Source of the DNA: an uncultured Sphingomonadaceae bacterium
GTDB taxonomy: Bacteria > Pseudomonadota > Alphaproteobacteria > Sphingomonadales > Sphingomonadaceae
Direction: 5' to 3'
DNA length: 64,000 bases
Assembly (NCBI GenBank): GCA_947501325.1
Contig: CANMVC010000002.1
Coordinates: 62,001 to 126,000 of the forward strand
The notes below the pieces were generated by a model. It had not been told where the DNA came from and did not search any database. It was given only the letters and a program-made list of their open reading frames with translations. The position numbers were made by a program, and so were the translations under genes. Of the stretch, positions 3,927 through 61,609 are shown piece by piece. How positions within the stretch are numbered: the stretch's first letter is position 1; the number at the start of each line of letters is the position of its first letter.

Positions 3927-4799
3927 TTGACCGACCAGAAGCCTCTCAGCTTCCAGCAGATCATCCTGAAACTCCACGATTATTGGAGTGATCAGGGCTG
4001 TGCAATCCTGCAGCCCTATGACATGGAAATGGGCGCCGGTACGTTCCACACAGCGACCACCCTGCGCGCGCTGGGTCCCGATCCGTGGAATGCCGCTTTT
4101 GTGCAGCCTTGCCGCCGGCCCACCGATGGCCGCTATGGCGAAAATCCCAACCGGCTGCAGCATTATTACCAATATCAGGTGATCCTCAAGCCTTCGCCGC
4201 CGGATATCCAGCAGCTCTATCTCGACAGCCTGACCGCCATCGGCATTGATCCGATGCTCCACGACATTCGCTTTGTCGAGGATGACTGGGAAAGCCCGAC
4301 TTTGGGCGCCTGGGGTTTGGGCTGGGAAGTCTGGTGCGATGGCATGGAGGTGACGCAGTTCACTTATTTCCAGCAAATGGGCGGTTTTGACTGCAAGCCG
4401 GTGGCTGGCGAACTGACCTACGGGCTCGAACGGCTCGCCATGTATATTCAGGGCGTCGATAGCATCTACGATCTGGATTATAATGGGAATGGAGTCAGTT
4501 ACGGCGATATCTTCCTGGATAATGAGAAGCAGATGTCGGAATGGAATTTCGAGGTTGCGAATACCGAAACGCTGTTTGATCTGTTCAAGAAAGCCACAGC
4601 GGAATGCGAGAATTGCCTCGAAGCAAAGCTCCCCATTCCGGCCTATGAACAAGCGATCAAGGCGAGCCATGTGTTCAACCTGCTGCAGGCGCGCGGCGTG
4701 ATCAGCGTGCAGGAACGGGCCAGCTATATGGGTCAGGTCCGCGATCTCGCCAAAGGCAGCTGTGAGGCCTACATGGTCAAGAATGGATGGGACGCATGA
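3927..4799 (+). CDS. glyQ: Glycine--tRNA ligase alpha subunit
   Basis: Alpha subunit of the alpha2beta2 bacterial glycyl-tRNA synthetase, carrying the class-II catalytic core that makes glycyl-adenylate. Diagnostic blocks are [39 protein letters not shown] and [19 protein letters not shown]. The open frame extends to a TTG at 3858 (313 aa). I chose the TTG at 3927 because it gives 290 aa and an N-terminus that leads directly into the conserved [13 protein letters not shown]; the extra 23 residues look like untranslated leader. No ATG start is available. glyS follows after a 127-bp spacer holding a palindromic repeat. Confidence 0.93.
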
Positions 4800-56437: not shown

Positions 56438-56845
56438 TCAGTTCTGATACCGCTCTGCAGTTTGGTTTATAAGCGCGATCATGTTGGGAATGCCCTGCGT
56501 CCGATTGGAACTCAGCTGGTTTTTTAAATCGAACGGCTCAAGCTTCTCGGCGATATCGGTCTTTAACACAGCATCAATGGGTTGATCCTGTACCGTCTCC
56601 AACACCAACGCGATGATACCCTTGGTAATGGCTGCATTGCTGTCGGCCAGGAAATGCAGGCGGCCGTCATCTAATTGAGTCGGATAGACCCACACGGAAG
56701 CCGAGCAACCGCGCACCAAAGTCGCATCTGTTTTGAGCGCATCTGGCATCGGCTCAAGCTCTTTGCCAAGATCGATGAGAAGCCGGTAGCGGTCATCGGC
56801 TTCGAGAAATTCATATTCTTCTACGAGTTCGTCTATTTTGTTCAT
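56438..56845 (-). CDS. sufE: SufE-family cysteine desulfuration protein
   Basis: 135 aa. Cys47 in LVRGCSASVWVYPTQ is the sulfur-accepting residue, followed by DSNAAITKGIIALVLETVQD and a C-terminal LSSNRTQGIPNMIALINQ. SufE accepts persulfide from SufS for Fe-S cluster building. Preceded at 56913 by the last psp-operon gene on the same strand with a 67-bp gap containing GCCC/GGGC stems, so it may be read from the same promoter or its own. Confidence 0.94.
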   Translation of the reverse strand: MNKIDELVEEYEFLEADDRYRLLIDLGKELEPMPDALKTDATLVRGCSASVWVYPTQLDDGRLHFLADSNAAITKGIIALVLETVQDQPIDAVLKTDIAEKLEPFDLKNQLSSNRTQGIPNMIALINQTAERYQN

Positions 56846-56912: not shown

Positions 56913-57155
56913 TTAGAGTTCCACCCCGGCAGCAATCGCTTCCAACTTGCGGATGCGTTCTTTCAGGTCCGCAACTTCAATACGCGATGTGGCGCTTGGC
57001 GGATTATCTTCACGATATTGCTCGCGATGTTGTTCCAATTCCTTGGTCTTGAGCGCGATCCAGTCGCGCCATCCCCGCAAGGCAATCAGCGATACTGCCG
57101 TCAGTCCAATCAGGGTAAATGCAGCAGTCATCAGGTAAAAACTGGGTTCTGGCAT
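56913..57155 (-). CDS. Psp-cluster small membrane protein, coiled coil (paralogue 6)
   Basis: 80 aa. One membrane segment (FYLMTAAFTLIGLTAVSLIAL), a charged stretch (WRDWIALKTKELEQHREQYR) and a terminal coiled coil DLKERIRKLEAIAAGVEL. The last block matches the LKDRVAVLEKI motif of its neighbours, but the TD...EIExLR ending is lost. AAGGAT precedes the ATG. Most diverged member of the tandem set and last of the psp group, 42 bp after paralogue 5. Confidence 0.75.
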   Translation of the reverse strand: MPEPSFYLMTAAFTLIGLTAVSLIALRGWRDWIALKTKELEQHREQYREDNPPSATSRIEVADLKERIRKLEAIAAGVEL

Positions 57156-57196
57156 GATGCTATCCTTCTTCTCTTCCTACTTTTTGGGGAACCGGT

Positions 57197-57457
57197 TTAG
57201 CGGTCCCGCAATTTCTCAATTTCATCGCCAAGCTCGCGGGCGCCGCGATCATCGGTGGCGATTTTTTCTAGAACGGCGACGCGTTCTTTCAGATATTTGA
57301 CTTCCTCACGAAGCCGCCCGGCGTCAGGATCTACCAAAGTTACGGGGTTTCCATCTTCGTCCGACGCAATGCCATGCTTGGCCTGGACACGGGTGTTGAC
57401 CACTTTGCCAACGGTGATGACGATGATGATGGCAACAACCATTTCAAATGGATTCAT
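57197..57457 (-). CDS. Psp-cluster PspB-like small membrane protein (paralogue 5)
   Basis: 86 aa. N-terminal membrane segment (EMVVAIIIVITVGKVV), then NTRVQAKHGIASDEDGNP, then the coiled coil KYLKERVAVLEKIATDDRGA and ELGDEIEKLRDR. The coil is almost identical to paralogue 4 (57488-57754). The AKHG motif is shared with paralogues 1 and 2. Ribosome-binding site GAGAGGGAAGAG. Function unknown; PspB-like regulation of PspA is the working idea. Confidence 0.78.
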   Translation of the reverse strand: MNPFEMVVAIIIVITVGKVVNTRVQAKHGIASDEDGNPVTLVDPDAGRLREEVKYLKERVAVLEKIATDDRGARELGDEIEKLRDR

Positions 57458-57487
57458 ATTCTTCTCTTCCCTCTCAACGCTTTATTT

Positions 57488-57754
57488 TCAGCTGTCTTTC
57501 AGTTTCGCTATTTCGTGATCAAGCTCGCGGGCACCGCGCTCATCAGTGACTATCTTTTCCAGCACAGCCACGCGATCTTTCAGATATTTCATATCTTCAT
57601 TCATACGCCGGCTATCGTCACTTTCCGGCGCGTTTTTACCGAGCAACATAAGCTCCTTTTGCTTGTCCACCATATTGCTTTGATGACGGGTCCATATCCA
57701 GAGGCCGCCGAGGCCAAATGGTGCAAGCGGTATGAGTAAAGCGAGCCAATCCAT
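57488..57754 (-). CDS. Psp-cluster PspB-like small membrane protein (paralogue 4)
   Basis: 88 aa. Membrane segment LALLIPLAPFGLGGLWIW, a linker with MNEDMKYLKDRVAVLEKIVT, and the ending DERGARELDHEIAKLKDS. Start overlaps the stop of paralogue 3 by one base (TGATG), so the two are translated together. No enzyme motif. The N-terminal sequence DWLALLIPLAPFG is near paralogue 3 (IEYLALLIPFAGIG), a recent duplication. Confidence 0.78.
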   Translation of the reverse strand: MDWLALLIPLAPFGLGGLWIWTRHQSNMVDKQKELMLLGKNAPESDDSRRMNEDMKYLKDRVAVLEKIVTDERGARELDHEIAKLKDS

Positions 57755-58014
57755 CAGTTTAATTCCTTTACTTCTGGGGCGTCGCGCAGATTTTCAATTT
57801 GTCCAGCCACGTCGAAACCTTTGTCAGTGACGATACGCTCCAACACCCGGACGCGTTGTTCCAGCTTTTCGGTGTTAGCGACATATTGCGCGGCTTTTTC
57901 CGCTGAGATGGTGGACTGCATCTTCATCATCTTTTGTTGATGACTGGTCCAGATCGCGAATACACCCACGCCAATGCCGGCAAAAGGGATCAACAGGGCT
58001 AGATACTCAATCAT
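57754..58014 (-). CDS. Psp-cluster PspB-like small membrane protein (paralogue 3)
   Basis: 86 aa. Membrane segment LALLIPFAGIGVGVFAIW, a Met/Lys/Gln-rich linker, coiled coil TEKLEQRVRVLERIVTDKGF and DVAGQIENLRDAPEVKELN. Ribosome-binding site GAGGAG six bases before the ATG. Together with paralogue 4 it forms a translationally coupled pair. Confidence 0.78.
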   Translation of the reverse strand: MIEYLALLIPFAGIGVGVFAIWTSHQQKMMKMQSTISAEKAAQYVANTEKLEQRVRVLERIVTDKGFDVAGQIENLRDAPEVKELN

Positions 58015-58024
58015 ATTGATCTCC

Positions 58025-58351
58025 TCAGTTCTTCGTCGAGCGCAATGCTTCGATTTCGTTGGTCAGCCGATGGCTGTCGTCGGTGACAATCCGCTCAACA
58101 TTGGCCAACCGATCTTTCATCGAACCGATCTCGGCGCGCAATTCTGCGTTCTCGTTGGTTAGCAACTTGACCCGCTCTACCGCTTCCTGGTCTGTTTTAG
58201 GGTGAAGCGCATTGCCCCAGCTGCCCTCCAGCGGATATCCATTTTTAATCCTCATCCAAGTGGTCACAACCCAGCCGCCAACAGCAAAAACCGTTATTAC
58301 AGCTGCGAAAGGCAGGATTTCGAGAATGAATGCTGCTTTATCCGGTTCCAT
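58025..58351 (-). CDS. Psp-cluster PspB-like small membrane protein (paralogue 2)
   Basis: 108 aa. Membrane segment LPFAAVITVFAVGGWVVTTW, then MRIKNGYPLEGSWGNALHPK, coiled coil EIGSMKDRLANVERIVTDDS, HRLTNEIEALRSTKN. Shares the W(V/M)R(A/I)K(H/N)GYPLE text with paralogue 1, whose stop overlaps its start (TGATG). Likely a tandem duplicate. Confidence 0.78.
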   Translation of the reverse strand: MEPDKAAFILEILPFAAVITVFAVGGWVVTTWMRIKNGYPLEGSWGNALHPKTDQEAVERVKLLTNENAELRAEIGSMKDRLANVERIVTDDSHRLTNEIEALRSTKN

Positions 58352-58650
58352 CAGTACTTCTCCCTTAGGGCTTCAATTTCATCGGCGGTGCGTTTGGCAG
58401 GATCGGTGGCGATCCGTTCTAATACTGCCAGCCGTTCCTGTAGCCGATCGATTTTTCCGACCAGTTCTTCATTCTCGGTAGATAGCAGTTGGATCTTGCG
58501 TTCCGCATCCGGACTGCCTTTATCGGTTGTGCCGCCCCATTCATTCTCAAGCGGATAGCCATGTTTGGCTCTTACCCAGTTGTTTATAATCCAGCCAGCG
58601 TAGCAAACTGCGATGATGGCGATAACAAATCCCGGTCCACCCCAATTCAT
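58351..58650 (-). CDS. Psp-cluster PspB-like small membrane protein (paralogue 1)
   Basis: 99 aa. Membrane segment GFVIAIIAVCYAGWIINNW, then VRAKHGYPLENEWGGTTDKG and a long coiled coil with NEELVGKIDRLQERLAVLER and KRTADEIEALREKY. Ribosome-binding site AGGGAGA. It follows pspC after 29 bp and is coupled to paralogue 2. Confidence 0.78.
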   Translation of the reverse strand: MNWGGPGFVIAIIAVCYAGWIINNWVRAKHGYPLENEWGGTTDKGSPDAERKIQLLSTENEELVGKIDRLQERLAVLERIATDPAKRTADEIEALREKY

Positions 58651-58679
58651 AACTAGTCTCCCTAAATCTGATCTAATAT

Positions 58680-59060
58680 CTAACGAAGGCTCTCAATCTC
58701 ATTCGAGAGCGTTGTGTTCTTGCTTGTGTAATACAGCTCCATATCGGCGAGGCGGCGGTCAATTTCGCGAAAACGGGATTTGACATCACGAGCCGTCCGG
58801 CGTGGGGACTGGCGGACGCCTTGCCAGAATTCCAGCTCTTCCGCGTCACCATAAAGTTCCAGCGGCTTGGCATCGGCCGATTTTGCGGCAACCCAATAAG
58901 CAATTAATGTCCAAGGGAATGCGAAAGTTACTGTGGCTATCACGGCGGCGATACGAACCCAGATGACATTAATTCCGGTATAATCTGCTATCCCGGCGCA
59001 CACGCCGCTCCATTTGGCGCGCTGTTTATCGAGATAAAATTTGGTGCGTGTGGAAGACAT
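58680..59060 (-). CDS. pspC: PspC-domain envelope-stress membrane protein
   Basis: 126 aa. The N-terminal PspC domain (AKWSGVCAGIADYTGINVIW then membrane segment VRIAAVIATVTFAFPWTLIA) is canonical. The C-terminal half is a coiled coil (FREIDRRLADMELYYTSKNT, TLSNEIESLR) whose ending EIESLR is the same as in the small paralogues. In enterobacteria PspB and PspC sense envelope stress and sequester PspA from PspF. Lies 2 bp after pspB. Confidence 0.92.
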   Translation of the reverse strand: MSSTRTKFYLDKQRAKWSGVCAGIADYTGINVIWVRIAAVIATVTFAFPWTLIAYWVAAKSADAKPLELYGDAEELEFWQGVRQSPRRTARDVKSRFREIDRRLADMELYYTSKNTTLSNEIESLR

Positions 59061-59062
59061 GA

Positions 59063-59359
59063 TTAGCGCCTTTCTTTCAGAAGATTATCAAAATTTTCGA
59101 GGGTTGGTTTCGGATCGCTGGTGGCATCAGACAAAGCTGATTGGCGCCAATTGGGATTATCCGCTGTCATGATCCGCTCAATGGTTTCCATCCGGTCATC
59201 CAGTCTCCGCGCCATCTGGTGCAATTCGTCGAGCAGTTGCTCGTCTTCGTTGGTAATGGTTGCCGCGGTTTTCCACTTTGTAACATAGTGGAAGATGATC
59301 CATGGCAGACCGATGAACAGCATGCCGACGACAAATATCGGTACGAGTATGTCTTCCAT
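59063..59359 (-). CDS. pspB: PspB-like envelope-stress membrane protein
   Basis: 98 aa. Membrane segment VPIFVVGMLFIGLPWIIFHY, then a coiled coil with QMARRLDDRMETIERIMTAD and the PspB hallmark NPNWRQS, which matches enterobacterial HPNWRD. A C-terminal ~25-residue extension follows. Start overlaps the pspA stop by one base, so pspA-pspB are coupled. The ancestor-type of the small paralogues downstream. Confidence 0.9.
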   Translation of the reverse strand: MEDILVPIFVVGMLFIGLPWIIFHYVTKWKTAATITNEDEQLLDELHQMARRLDDRMETIERIMTADNPNWRQSALSDATSDPKPTLENFDNLLKERR

Positions 59360-60042
59360 TATTGGTCACCTTTCTGATTTGATTTTTTCAGGGCCGCTTT
59401 CATCGCTTCCAGCTCGTCATCGACCTTGTCACTGCTTTCCAACGCCGCAATCTGATTTTCCAGCGTATCCGGTTCGCCACCCATGCTCAAAGCATCGGCG
59501 CGGCCTTCGGCATGGTCCACCTGGCGTTCGAGATATTCAAATTTCGAAAAGGCATCATGAACTTTGTCACCATTATACATTTCGCGAATTTTATAGCGGT
59601 TCTCGGCGCTTTCCAAACGGTTGACCAAGCTGCTCTGGCGAGAGCGCGCTTCCTGCAATTTCTTCTGCAGTTTCGCGATGTCCCCTTCCGAAGCGCGCAG
59701 AGCGTCATCCAGTACCTGAATTTCTACCGTAAGTTGCTCGGCCATGTCAGAGGCTTTCCGCTTTTCCATCAGCGCAGCTTTGGCGAGATCTTCCCGATCC
59801 TTGGACAAAGCCAGTTGCGCTTTTTCGTTCCAGTCGTCGGTCAGCTGGTTGAGCTTATCTATATGCCGGCGCATTTCTTTCTGGTCGGCAATGGTGCGGG
59901 CTGCAGAAGCGCGGACCTCAACAAGGGTTTCTTCCATTTCCAGGATGATCATGCGGATCAGCTTGGAAGGATCCTCGGCCTTGTCGAGCATGTCTGTGAC
60001 GTTGGCGGCGATGATATCGCGTGTTCTTGAAAAAATACCCAT
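59359..60042 (-). CDS. pspA: Phage shock protein A
   Basis: 227 aa from the ATG at 60042 (GGAG upstream); the open frame to 60213 is not PspA-like. MGIFSRTRDIIAANVTDMLD opens with the amphipathic helix, and the rest is the coiled-coil PspA/IM30 (ESCRT-III-like) body: DPSKLIRMIILEMEETLVEV, LESAENRYKIREMYNGDKVH. It binds stressed inner membrane and inhibits PspF when bound to it. First large gene of the operon, 167 bp downstream of the small exported gene. Confidence 0.96.
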   Translation of the reverse strand: MGIFSRTRDIIAANVTDMLDKAEDPSKLIRMIILEMEETLVEVRASAARTIADQKEMRRHIDKLNQLTDDWNEKAQLALSKDREDLAKAALMEKRKASDMAEQLTVEIQVLDDALRASEGDIAKLQKKLQEARSRQSSLVNRLESAENRYKIREMYNGDKVHDAFSKFEYLERQVDHAEGRADALSMGGEPDTLENQIAALESSDKVDDELEAMKAALKKSNQKGDQ

Positions 60043-60153
60043 GGTTAAACTCCGGTGGTTGCTAGCGTTGTGCCTGGAATGGTTCGAACGTTCAGGCTGG
60101 TCTTTATAACATTTTGCGTTTTCAATAAATTCTACGTCTTCAATCTGGAAAGG

Positions 60154-60200
60154 TGGCCGGGACCGTACTTCGGCAAGGGGGAATGAAGGGGTCCCGGCCA
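60154..60200. terminator. Perfect hairpin between the small exported gene and pspA
   Basis: TGGCCGGGACC (60154-60164) and GGTCCCGGCCA (60190-60200) are exact complements, 11 bp, loop 25 bases. On the minus strand it begins 10 bases after the stop of 60210-60392, with only a short CCTTTCC tail. It may attenuate transcription or protect mRNA between the first gene and pspA, rather than end it. Confidence 0.55.
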
Positions 60201-60209
60201 TTTCGCCTG

Positions 60210-60392
60210 TCACGCTTTGTAGCTGACAGTTGGGGAAATTGTACCATCTTCGGAGACGACCGGGCCTTGTGCTTCAGCAGGGCCAACGGCGCTGATCAAA
60301 ATTGTCAGGCTGAACAACAGCACGGAAATGATCGCAGAAACATCGGTTCTGCTCAAATTTACGAATTTGCTAGTTTTCGTGGTTGCTGACAT
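60210..60392 (-). CDS. Small exported protein, first gene of the psp operon
   Basis: 60 aa from the ATG at 60392, which has the strong ribosome-binding site GGAGGA 6 bases upstream; a start at 60404 is disfavoured. Basic n-region (TKTSKFVNLSR), hydrophobic core ISVLLFSLTILISAV, then GPAEA-Q, a good signal-peptidase I site. The predicted mature part would be just ~19 residues (QGPVVSEDGTISPTVSYKA). It could instead stay as a membrane anchor. It is the first coding sequence after the sigma-54 promoter. No family recognised. Confidence 0.72.
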   Translation of the reverse strand: MSATTKTSKFVNLSRTDVSAIISVLLFSLTILISAVGPAEAQGPVVSEDGTISPTVSYKA

Positions 60393-60444
60393 TTTTTCCT
60401 CCATTTGGTCGAATTCTGGTCCCTTGCGGGTTCGAAACTAACGT

Positions 60445-60460
60445 TGCAGGAGGCGTGCCA
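60445..60460 (-). promoter_or_regulatory. Sigma-54 promoter (-24/-12) of the psp operon
   Basis: On the minus strand TGGCACGCCTCCTGCA: -24 GG (60459-60458) and -12 GC (60447-60446) are 10 bases apart, matching the TGGCACG-N4-TTGCA consensus with one mismatch. Transcription would start near 60434, ~42 bases before the ATG of the small exported gene. The PspF-type activator gene is divergent on the other side, as in known psp loci. Confidence 0.85.
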
Positions 60461-60550: not shown

Positions 60551-61609
60551 ATGTTAGCCATGGAGCGCGAAAATCAATTTATTGGGGAGTCCGGGGCTTT
60601 TCTCGATGCGGTCGAAAAGGCCAGTCGTGCGGCCGCTCTGGATCGTCCTGTCCTTGTTATAGGGGAGCGCGGTACCGGTAAAGAGCTGATTGCTGAGCGT
60701 TTGCATCGTCTGAGTGCGCGATGGGATGGGCCTTTGGTCACGCTAAATTGTGCCGCCATGCCTGAAACGCTTATTGAAGCTGAGCTATTTGGCCATGAAG
60801 CTGGCGCTTTCACCGGTGCTACCAAGAACCGGGTAGGGCGATTTGAAGAGGCCGATGGCGGCACCCTCTTTCTCGATGAACTCGGGACTTTGTCATCCGC
60901 GGCACAAGAGCGCTTGTTGCGTGCAGTAGAATATGGCGAAATAACCCGCATAGGGTCTTCCCGCCCGCAACGAGTCGATGTACGGATTGTAGCGGCAACC
61001 AATGCCGATCTACCCAAGATGGCGGATGAGGGCACATTCCGGGCGGATTTGCTCGACCGCTTGTCGTTTGAAGTCGTAACCTTACCTCCCCTGCGGTATC
61101 GCGAAGGCGATGTGCCGGTGCTGGCCGATTATTTCGGGCGGCGCATGGCAGCAGAGCTGGAGTGGGAGCAATGGCCCGGCTTTGGACAACTCGCATCCGA
61201 AGCGCTGGGGCGCCATCCATGGCCGGGCAATGTCCGCGAGCTGCGTAACGTGATCGAGCGGGCCGTCTACCAATGGAACGATTATTCACGGCCTGTAGAT
61301 CATATTGTATTTGATCCATTTGAATCGCCCTGGAAGCCCAAAGAAGCTCCGCCACGAGCAAAATCGCCTGCAGAGTCCGACAATAGATCCGAGCCATTAG
61401 CTACATCGCCCGCGCCGGCACCAACTGCGCCAGAACCTACCTTTGCGGCCGTCGATGATATGAAAGAGGCGGTGGAGGCTTTTGAAAAGCGCATCTTGGA
61501 AGCGGCTTTGGCGAAGTCGCGCTATAACCAGCGGCAAACTGCCAAGGCTCTTAATCTGACCTATGATCAGTTACGCCATTCTCTTAAACGGCATGATCTC
61601 TTGGGATAG
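60551..61609 (+). CDS. pspF: Sigma-54-dependent activator PspF
   Basis: 352 aa from the ATG at 60551 (AGGAA 10 bases upstream); ATG 60560 and TTG 60524 also possible. No receiver domain. AAA+ core: Walker A VIGERGTGKELIAERLH, sigma-54-contact GHEAGAFTGATKNRVGRFEE, Walker B GGTLFLDELGTL and R-finger region. A ~60-residue Pro/Ala linker follows, then a Fis-type helix-turn-helix (YNQRQTAKALNLTYDQLRHS). PspF binds upstream of the psp operon and is held off by PspA. Binding sites should lie in 60470-60545. Confidence 0.95.
   Translation: MLAMERENQFIGESGAFLDAVEKASRAAALDRPVLVIGERGTGKELIAERLHRLSARWDGPLVTLNCAAMPETLIEAELFGHEAGAFTGATKNRVGRFEEADGGTLFLDELGTLSSAAQERLLRAVEYGEITRIGSSRPQRVDVRIVAATNADLPKMADEGTFRADLLDRLSFEVVTLPPLRYREGDVPVLADYFGRRMAAELEWEQWPGFGQLASEALGRHPWPGNVRELRNVIERAVYQWNDYSRPVDHIVFDPFESPWKPKEAPPRAKSPAESDNRSEPLATSPAPAPTAPEPTFAAVDDMKEAVEAFEKRILEAALAKSRYNQRQTAKALNLTYDQLRHSLKRHDLLG

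Follow-up and report, generated by a model that had tools for sequence, protein, structure and literature searches.

Small membrane proteins resembling PspB and the PspC tail form a variable gene array behind pspC in Sphingomonadaceae

In the commonly studied species PspB and PspC are each present in one copy, and how they sense membrane damage and relay it to PspA is, to our knowledge, not settled. We know of no tandem array like the one described below in the enterobacterial pspABCDE operon with pspG, and PspD and PspG are other proteins than those of the array. In the present study we analysed a stretch of 64,000 nucleotides (nt) from an uncultured Sphingomonadaceae bacterium (the window, to whose positions all unprefixed coordinates refer), in which pspA, pspB and pspC are followed by six further genes for small membrane proteins, hereafter the array. 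The C-terminal cytoplasmic domain of PspC binds PspA in the on state, according to PMC5596341, and a passage of PMC3068692 describes a zipper motif of PspC as required for the interaction with PspA.

The array family is real and beyond chance, because at least one array gene follows pspC in 84 of the 85 psp loci sampled in the window's GTDB family (f1), shuffled profiles reached the real score in 0 of 60 trials per pair, and the ratio of the proportions of nonsynonymous and synonymous differences (pN/pS) lies at 0.02–0.20. On balance, we lean towards reading the array as a Psp membrane sensor that has been enlarged across the lineage, in which varied heads would share a cytoplasmic tail akin to the PspA-binding tail of PspC.

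Layout and spread of the array

The first-pass annotation of this DNA had described six more same-strand genes after pspA-pspB-pspC, encoding proteins of 80–108 amino acids (aa), tightly packed and with two stop/start overlaps. All of this was confirmed: the products measure 99, 108, 86, 88, 86 and 80 aa, and the overlaps lie at 58351 and 57754, with a third, between pspA and pspB at 59359, outside the array. A single membrane segment is predicted for every array protein, which also has a coil, and the protein types g1–g6 are named after array genes 1–6. The features of the locus, with the E values of the family matches, are as follows.

60560..61609, + strand: pspF, divergent sigma-54 activator (TIGR02974, 1.2e-146, above cut-off)
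60446..60460, − strand: sigma-54 type −24/−12 site TGGCACG-N5-TGC upstream of the operon (exact match)
60210..60404, − strand: leader open reading frame (ORF) between the −24/−12 site and pspA, with a single hydrophobic segment and the C-terminus ..SYKA; 64 aa long, or 60 aa if started at an inner ATG
59359..60042, − strand: pspA (TIGR02977, 6.3e-83, above cut-off)
59063..59359, − strand: pspB (PF06667, 5.6e-27, and TIGR02976, 8e-26, both above cut-off)
58680..59060, − strand: pspC (TIGR02978, 4.4e-34, above cut-off), C-terminus ..RRLADMELYYTSKNTTLSNEIESLR
58351..58650, − strand: array gene 1, 99 aa; type in 46/85 f1 loci
58025..58351, − strand: array gene 2, 108 aa; type in 64/85 f1 loci
57754..58014, − strand: array gene 3, 86 aa; type in 75/85 f1 loci
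57488..57754, − strand: array gene 4, 88 aa; type in 8/85 f1 loci
57197..57457, − strand: array gene 5, 86 aa, the most widespread type; in 82/85 f1 loci
56913..57155, − strand: array gene 6, 80 aa, last of the array, tail without EIxxLR; type in 77/85 f1 loci
56438..56845, − strand: sufE/csdE-like gene, syntenic boundary of the array and not thought to be a member (TIGR03391, 2.1e-26, below cut-off)

Of the 397 genomes searched in this order, 391 gave a PspA match. The sample of psp loci comprised 100 fetched loci and the window (101 in all, 85 in f1 and 16 outside), the f1 loci being the top rows of a ranked PspA list and not a random draw; array genes were called by iterated profiles, from pspC to sufE or up to 2,500 nt after pspC. 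The f1 loci contain 398 array genes, usually 4–6 per locus (mean 4.7, range 0–8), in 33 order patterns including the empty one, and a sufE homologue follows the array in 80 of the 85, within the stretch fetched. The genes are packed throughout the family: of the 314 junctions between neighbouring array genes, 78 are overlaps of 1 nt and 57 of 4 nt (135 together), another 157 lie within 50 nt, 10 at 51–100 nt and 12 are longer. As a sign of fixed pairs, the co-occurrence of types across the 85 loci is weak, with the largest phi, 0.38, for g2 and g6. In two loci of genus g21 (L014 and L087) the array is absent or reduced to gene 6 alone, with sufE still adjoining.

Outside f1, 13 of the 16 loci are without any array gene. 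Both loci fetched from family f8 have a single g5-like gene, and one f5 locus carries an extra gene with an ordinary PspB ending. In the two f8 loci (L040:3365-3607 and L041:3471-3725, + strand), a second, short PspC-like protein without the tail precedes the g5-like gene. In a second set, the best 80 of 528 loci picked by gene 2, pspC precedes the array in 79, while L131 begins within the array; all of these loci come from sphingomonads or from metagenome-assembled genomes labelled Sphingomonadales or Alphaproteobacteria. In a draw of genomes from the whole class, the array profile matched 13 of 387 (6 in f1, 2 clearly in f133 and 5 weakly, E 1.6e-6 to 9e-4), and a tail-only profile matched 9 of 389 (7 in f1 and the same two of f133); these figures count the matching genomes and not all f1 genomes drawn. 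In the six f1 genomes matched whole, the array matches form one cluster per genome, except for a zinc-ribbon protein of G027. The 2.1-Mb genome G219 has a single array gene, and its PspC gene is likewise matched by the array profile (E 0.0011). The array-like pairs of the two f133 genomes, G547 and G752, were rejected as psp arrays, lying near dut/coaBC-like genes (neighbours named by eye); this tandem pair, of 76 and 64 aa, is found at about 4479-4712 and 4227-4421 of L197 (− strand) and also in L198. One f1 genome, G244, has neither a PspA match nor an array match and retains a partial PspC-domain match (n = 1), whereas the other five PspA-less genomes of the order lie outside f1 and say little on co-loss.

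A sigma-54 promoter is recognised by sequence upstream of the window pspA, as an exact −24/−12 match of a pattern for which, with one mismatch allowed, chance occurrences are expected in 64 kb; the right-hand limit of the first-pass annotation, 60460, coincides with this site. Among the 83 f1 loci with enough upstream sequence, 69 have a −24/−12-like site in the 450 nt before pspA. Since only 10 matches occur in 138,472 nt of f1 array regions, the array has no regular sigma-54 site of its own.

The leader position is occupied by a hydrophobic ORF of 33–85 aa in 65 of 69 f1 leaders, where, in leaders with several ORFs, one ending in A was preferred; 61 of them have a final A and 57 end in L/I/V/K/R/P followed by A. 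On the antisense strand, used as a control, a hydrophobic ORF was found in 9 of 69 leaders and none had a final A. In Zymomonas, ZMO1062, called a putative pspD, appears by its number to occupy the place of the leader ORF. The passages on this locus in PMC3495753, PMC8645129 and PMC8237431 describe a response of the Zymomonas psp genes, and of ZMO1062 before pspA, to ethanol, xylose or temperature; the locus genes named in those passages are ZMO1061–ZMO1065 only, none of them after pspC.

The array genes are under constraint. When the window is compared with two close congeners, pN/pS amounts to 0.06–0.20 for genes 1–5, 0.02 for gene 6 and 0.08–0.10 for pspB and pspC, with synonymous sites near saturation in several cases. 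With more distant congeners, the weakest constraint is that of gene 4 (0.33–0.43).

Kinship to PspB and to the PspC tail

When compared with Pfam and NCBIfam, none of the window genes 1–6 scored above any family cut-off, including those of PF06667, TIGR02976, PF04024 and TIGR02978. Profile comparison with hhalign linked g1–g5 with each other at 97.9–99.9% (g1–g2 99.9%, g4–g3 98.9%, g4–g5 99.3%). The gene 6 type reached 94.5% to g5 and 87% to g3, but no more than about 53% to any of g1, g2 and g4; it is weakly related, linked through g5 and g3 only. Against the PspC tail of f1, g1–g5 scored 88–96%, and g1–g3 scored 88–90% against out-group PspC tails; in a separate sequence set, g2 again gave 94% to PspC. 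Against PspB of f1 and of the out-group, respectively, the values were 93 and 91% for g1, 75 and 46% for g2, 78 and 96% for g3, 3 and 46% for g4, and 5 and 76% for g5, the match of g3 to out-group PspB extending across 63 columns, membrane helix included. Heptad-preserving column shuffles reached the real score in 0 of 60 trials for each of the 15 pairs tested with an array family. Profile similarity to PspB and among the array proteins, on which the first-pass annotation had staked its proposal, is thus present.

A collection of 18,950 NCBIfam models was searched protein by protein at a threshold of E ≤ 0.01, using the window proteins and the non-redundant relatives of g2 (44 of 63), g3 (39 of 58) and g5 (40 of 62). 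All 45 gene-2-type proteins match the PspC model TIGR02978 below its cut-off, the match of gene 2 covering model positions 46–121, and none matches a PspB model at this threshold, leaving PspC as their sole Psp match. Among the 40 gene-3-type proteins, 23 match the PspC model and 20 the PspB model TIGR02976, and 12 match Pfam PspB; among the 41 of gene 5 type, 17 match the PspB model and 13 the PspC model. Across the entire model collection, PspC and PspB are the models with the largest numbers of matching g3- and g5-type proteins, and PspC is that of g2. The best E to the PspC model among the relatives of genes 2, 3 and 5 is 1.9e-5, the cut-off of TIGR02978 being 104 bits. On the profile comparison and these one-by-one scans, types 1–5 lie between PspB and the PspC tail, gene 3 leaning to PspB and gene 2 to PspC. 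Judged by their profiles, types 1–5 are one superfamily that resembles both PspB and the C-terminal tail of PspC.

The shared part is the C-terminal tail, with T-S/T-D and an EIxxLR-type end in genes 1–5 and the motif L..RV.VLERIvTD....L..EIE.LR in types 1–5; by profile, this motif is kin to the C-terminal tail of PspC and to the cytoplasmic helix of PspB. The EIxxLR end that had been noted for most of the coils and for PspC closes PspC and genes 1, 2 and 5 or lies close to their ends, whereas gene 3 has QIENLR, gene 4 EIAKLK and gene 6 no such end. The other shared text is as described, namely AKHG (genes 1 and 5), IKNG (gene 2) and LALLIP (genes 3 and 4).

Topology agrees with a Psp membrane protein by prediction: one N-terminal membrane helix with a cytoplasmic C-terminus, as in PspB, is predicted, and all 398 f1 array proteins have a charge bias consistent with an inside C-terminus. 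The AlphaFold model of gene 2 (helix 3–36, loop, helix 54–105; mean predicted local distance difference test score, pLDDT, 79) fits the proposal and adds little. The corresponding PspC model was set aside for its low confidence (mean pLDDT 63). A sequence search of solved structures gave nothing convincing (best E 0.14 for PspC and 0.066 for gene 2, none up to E 1 for PspB), and Foldseek found no match with the gene 2 model.

The closest rival explanation is that true PspB sensors have multiplied: every array protein would be a divergent paralogue of PspB and would take its place, or mix with it, in the PspB–PspC complex. We consider this rather unlikely. The one-helix layout and the predicted topology are those of PspB, g3 aligns with out-group PspB into the membrane helix, half of the gene-3-type and 17 of the 41 gene-5-type proteins match the PspB model, and one gene 3 relative, L116, exceeds the Pfam PspB cut-off (28.2 vs 25.6 bits, profile positions 3–65 of 73). 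However, the window genes all fall below the PspB cut-offs, L116 is the one protein to pass that of PF06667 among the 31 of 40 gene-3-type proteins whose scores were seen singly, and none of the 40 comes near that of TIGR02976 (best 27.7 of 51.7 bits). The out-group PspB ending (..ERILDdE.PDWR) is absent from the g1–g6 consensus sequences, among which a PspC-type ending is present, and a PspB duplicate in L037 retains the WR ending; the 45 gene-2-type proteins without a PspB match speak in the same direction. Of the proposal that PspB-type sensors multiplied in this lineage, what stands is a multiplied family of small single-pass proteins with a PspB-like layout and one member above the cut-off; what is not supported in the form proposed is an assignment to PspB, none of the window genes passing a PspB cut-off and the kinship to the PspC tail being equally evident. 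The hetero-oligomers and the PspA scaffold suggested along with it are hypothetical. As a separate observation, the window PspB (59063-59359, − strand) exceeds the Pfam PspB domain, which covers residues 1–73 of its 98 aa, by about 25 aa, and the f1 PspB consensus is likewise long.

A shared tail under varied heads

In comparisons between g1, g2, g3 and g5 (25 sequences each), the heads were 0.20–0.33 alike and the tail core 0.33–0.43. The tail is also found on a soluble protein of about 129 aa with an N-terminal zinc ribbon, which is near full length in 5 of 149 f1 genomes from 4 genera; the search matched 11 genomes, the further six by the C-terminal part only. The ribbon resembles DUF6487 below its cut-off (E 1.5e-4, 22.5 bits vs 24 bits).

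L200:4728-5117, + strand: zinc-ribbon protein with array tail, lying apart from psp (one locus inspected); also in L203–L207

The packed junctions, the promoter site, the inside C-terminus, the homology, the contrast of heads and tail, the tail on the zinc-ribbon protein, the co-loss in G244 (n = 1) and the selection all favour an enlarged Psp sensor. Active PspF would cause the whole set to be made, from one sigma-54-type site through the leader ORF, pspA, pspB, pspC and the array. The array tails may then pair with the tails of PspB and PspC and/or bind PspA, for which the Yersinia PspC tail is the precedent; several distinct heads embedded in the membrane could in this way feed one PspA/PspF switch. 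The array might also supply many membrane docking points for PspA, its tail-bearing proteins joining the PspC–PspA contact as competitors, partners or extra docking points.

Several observations weigh against this reading. With out-group PspC tails, g4 and g5 scored only 59% and 56%, and g3 reached only 46% to PspC in the separate sequence set. A direct comparison of PspB with the PspC tail gave no signal, 10 of 60 shuffles reaching the real score in both pairings. All matches to the PspC model are below its cut-off, as are those to the PspB models save one. Gene 6 ends in AAGVEL, without the PspC-type end, and between g1 and g2 the contrast of head and tail is small (0.33 vs 0.37). In the window's own genome, the short tail profile scores two soluble proteins (E 5.6e-4 and 7.3e-4) ahead of PspB (0.48), and the PspC tail is absent from its matches at thresholds as loose as E ≤ 10. 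Finally, the part of PMC3068692 on E. coli PspC weighs two topologies, in one of which the tail is possibly periplasmic, and the placement of the PspC tail in the model is therefore debated.

The two soluble proteins outscore PspB, and coil motifs alone are therefore not specific. These two and a third (E 0.37) each have a methyltransferase-like gene as neighbour and were left out of the array family. All three are small, carry a motif resembling (V/T)(L/V)EKI (L224:1403-1762, − strand; L225:1458-1796, + strand; L226:1185-1475, + strand; contig C1) and possibly form a separate family. A further weak tail match is at C2:151013 (E 0.161).

A second alternative is that the array proteins are effectors and not sensors, that is, co-regulated small membrane proteins that stabilise the membrane or the proton-motive force, their tails serving only for self-association or for sitting beside PspA. 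Such proteins would resemble PspD and PspG. The free variation in copy number and order, from 0 to 8 genes in 33 patterns over 85 loci, favours such a role, because a fixed stoichiometric sensor would tolerate it poorly, and the single array gene of the 2.1-Mb genome G219 fits as well. On the other hand, the types resemble each other most in the putative interaction tail, which is also found on a protein lacking a membrane helix. We regard effectors as an improbable account of the array. Highly improbable is the third, that these are unrelated small membrane coiled-coil proteins (FtsL/FtsB-like) merely adjoining psp, whose profile similarity reflects coiled-coil convergence: the coils are low in complexity, 4 of 41 gene-5-type proteins match an FtsL model and 19 of 45 gene-2-type proteins an Npun_F5560 model, and a similar motif sits on soluble proteins of the same genome, but the heptad-preserving shuffles never reached the real scores, PspC and PspB are the top matched models for the g3 and g5 types and PspC for g2, and each of the six f1 genomes has one array cluster, the G027 zinc-ribbon protein excepted.

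For the preferred reading, an enlarged Psp sensor, a bolder form can be offered only tentatively. The array proteins may represent a further class of Psp membrane protein in sphingomonads, one that bridges PspB and the tail of PspC; the row of up to eight packed genes would change fast and be accompanied by a conserved leader peptide. The heads might read different lesions while the common tail competes for PspA, which would amount to a combinatorial membrane-stress receptor, and the tail might be a portable PspA-docking module, also carried by the zinc-ribbon protein. Nearly 400 array genes in 84 loci, with a similar tail under different heads and 0–8 copies, provide a natural experiment on the sensing and docking parts, and the tail motif can be used to seek further PspA partners.

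Comparison with known Psp systems

A literature search on PspB in Sphingomonadales or Sphingomonas yielded no paper, and no such array was found in the passages of PMC9239133. Among the reports found on PspB duplicates or PspB-like proteins, only PMC11237479 bears on the subject: one line of its section 17 mentions PspB duplicates in some psp operons and PspC proteins that carry a divergent C-terminal PspB. Common to these cases and the array are psp operons with additional PspB-type genes and the notion that PspB and the PspC tail are related; they differ in that the section gives one example accession each, with no count, lineage survey or PspC-type tail. The statement that no described psp system with so many PspB-like units was known accordingly needs qualifying as to PspB duplicates as such; of this array itself the searches found no report.

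The window operon itself is a PspFABC system, with pspF divergent from pspABC and each gene above its family cut-off, and it shares the core of PspF, sigma-54, PspA, PspB and PspC with the enterobacterial pspABCDE operon and pspG. Like PspB (PF06667/TIGR02976), the array proteins are small single-helix inner-membrane psp proteins with a C-terminal cytoplasmic coil, by prediction; unlike PspB, they lack a P-D-W-R type ending, those of the window score below the cut-offs, and g4 and g5 have only 3–5% to the PspB of their own family. In contrast to PspC, the array proteins have one membrane helix only, no PF04024 PspC domain and no score above the cut-off, whereas the tails of g1–g5 resemble the PspC tail (TIGR02978) of f1, at the 88–96% given above and in the EIxxLR end.

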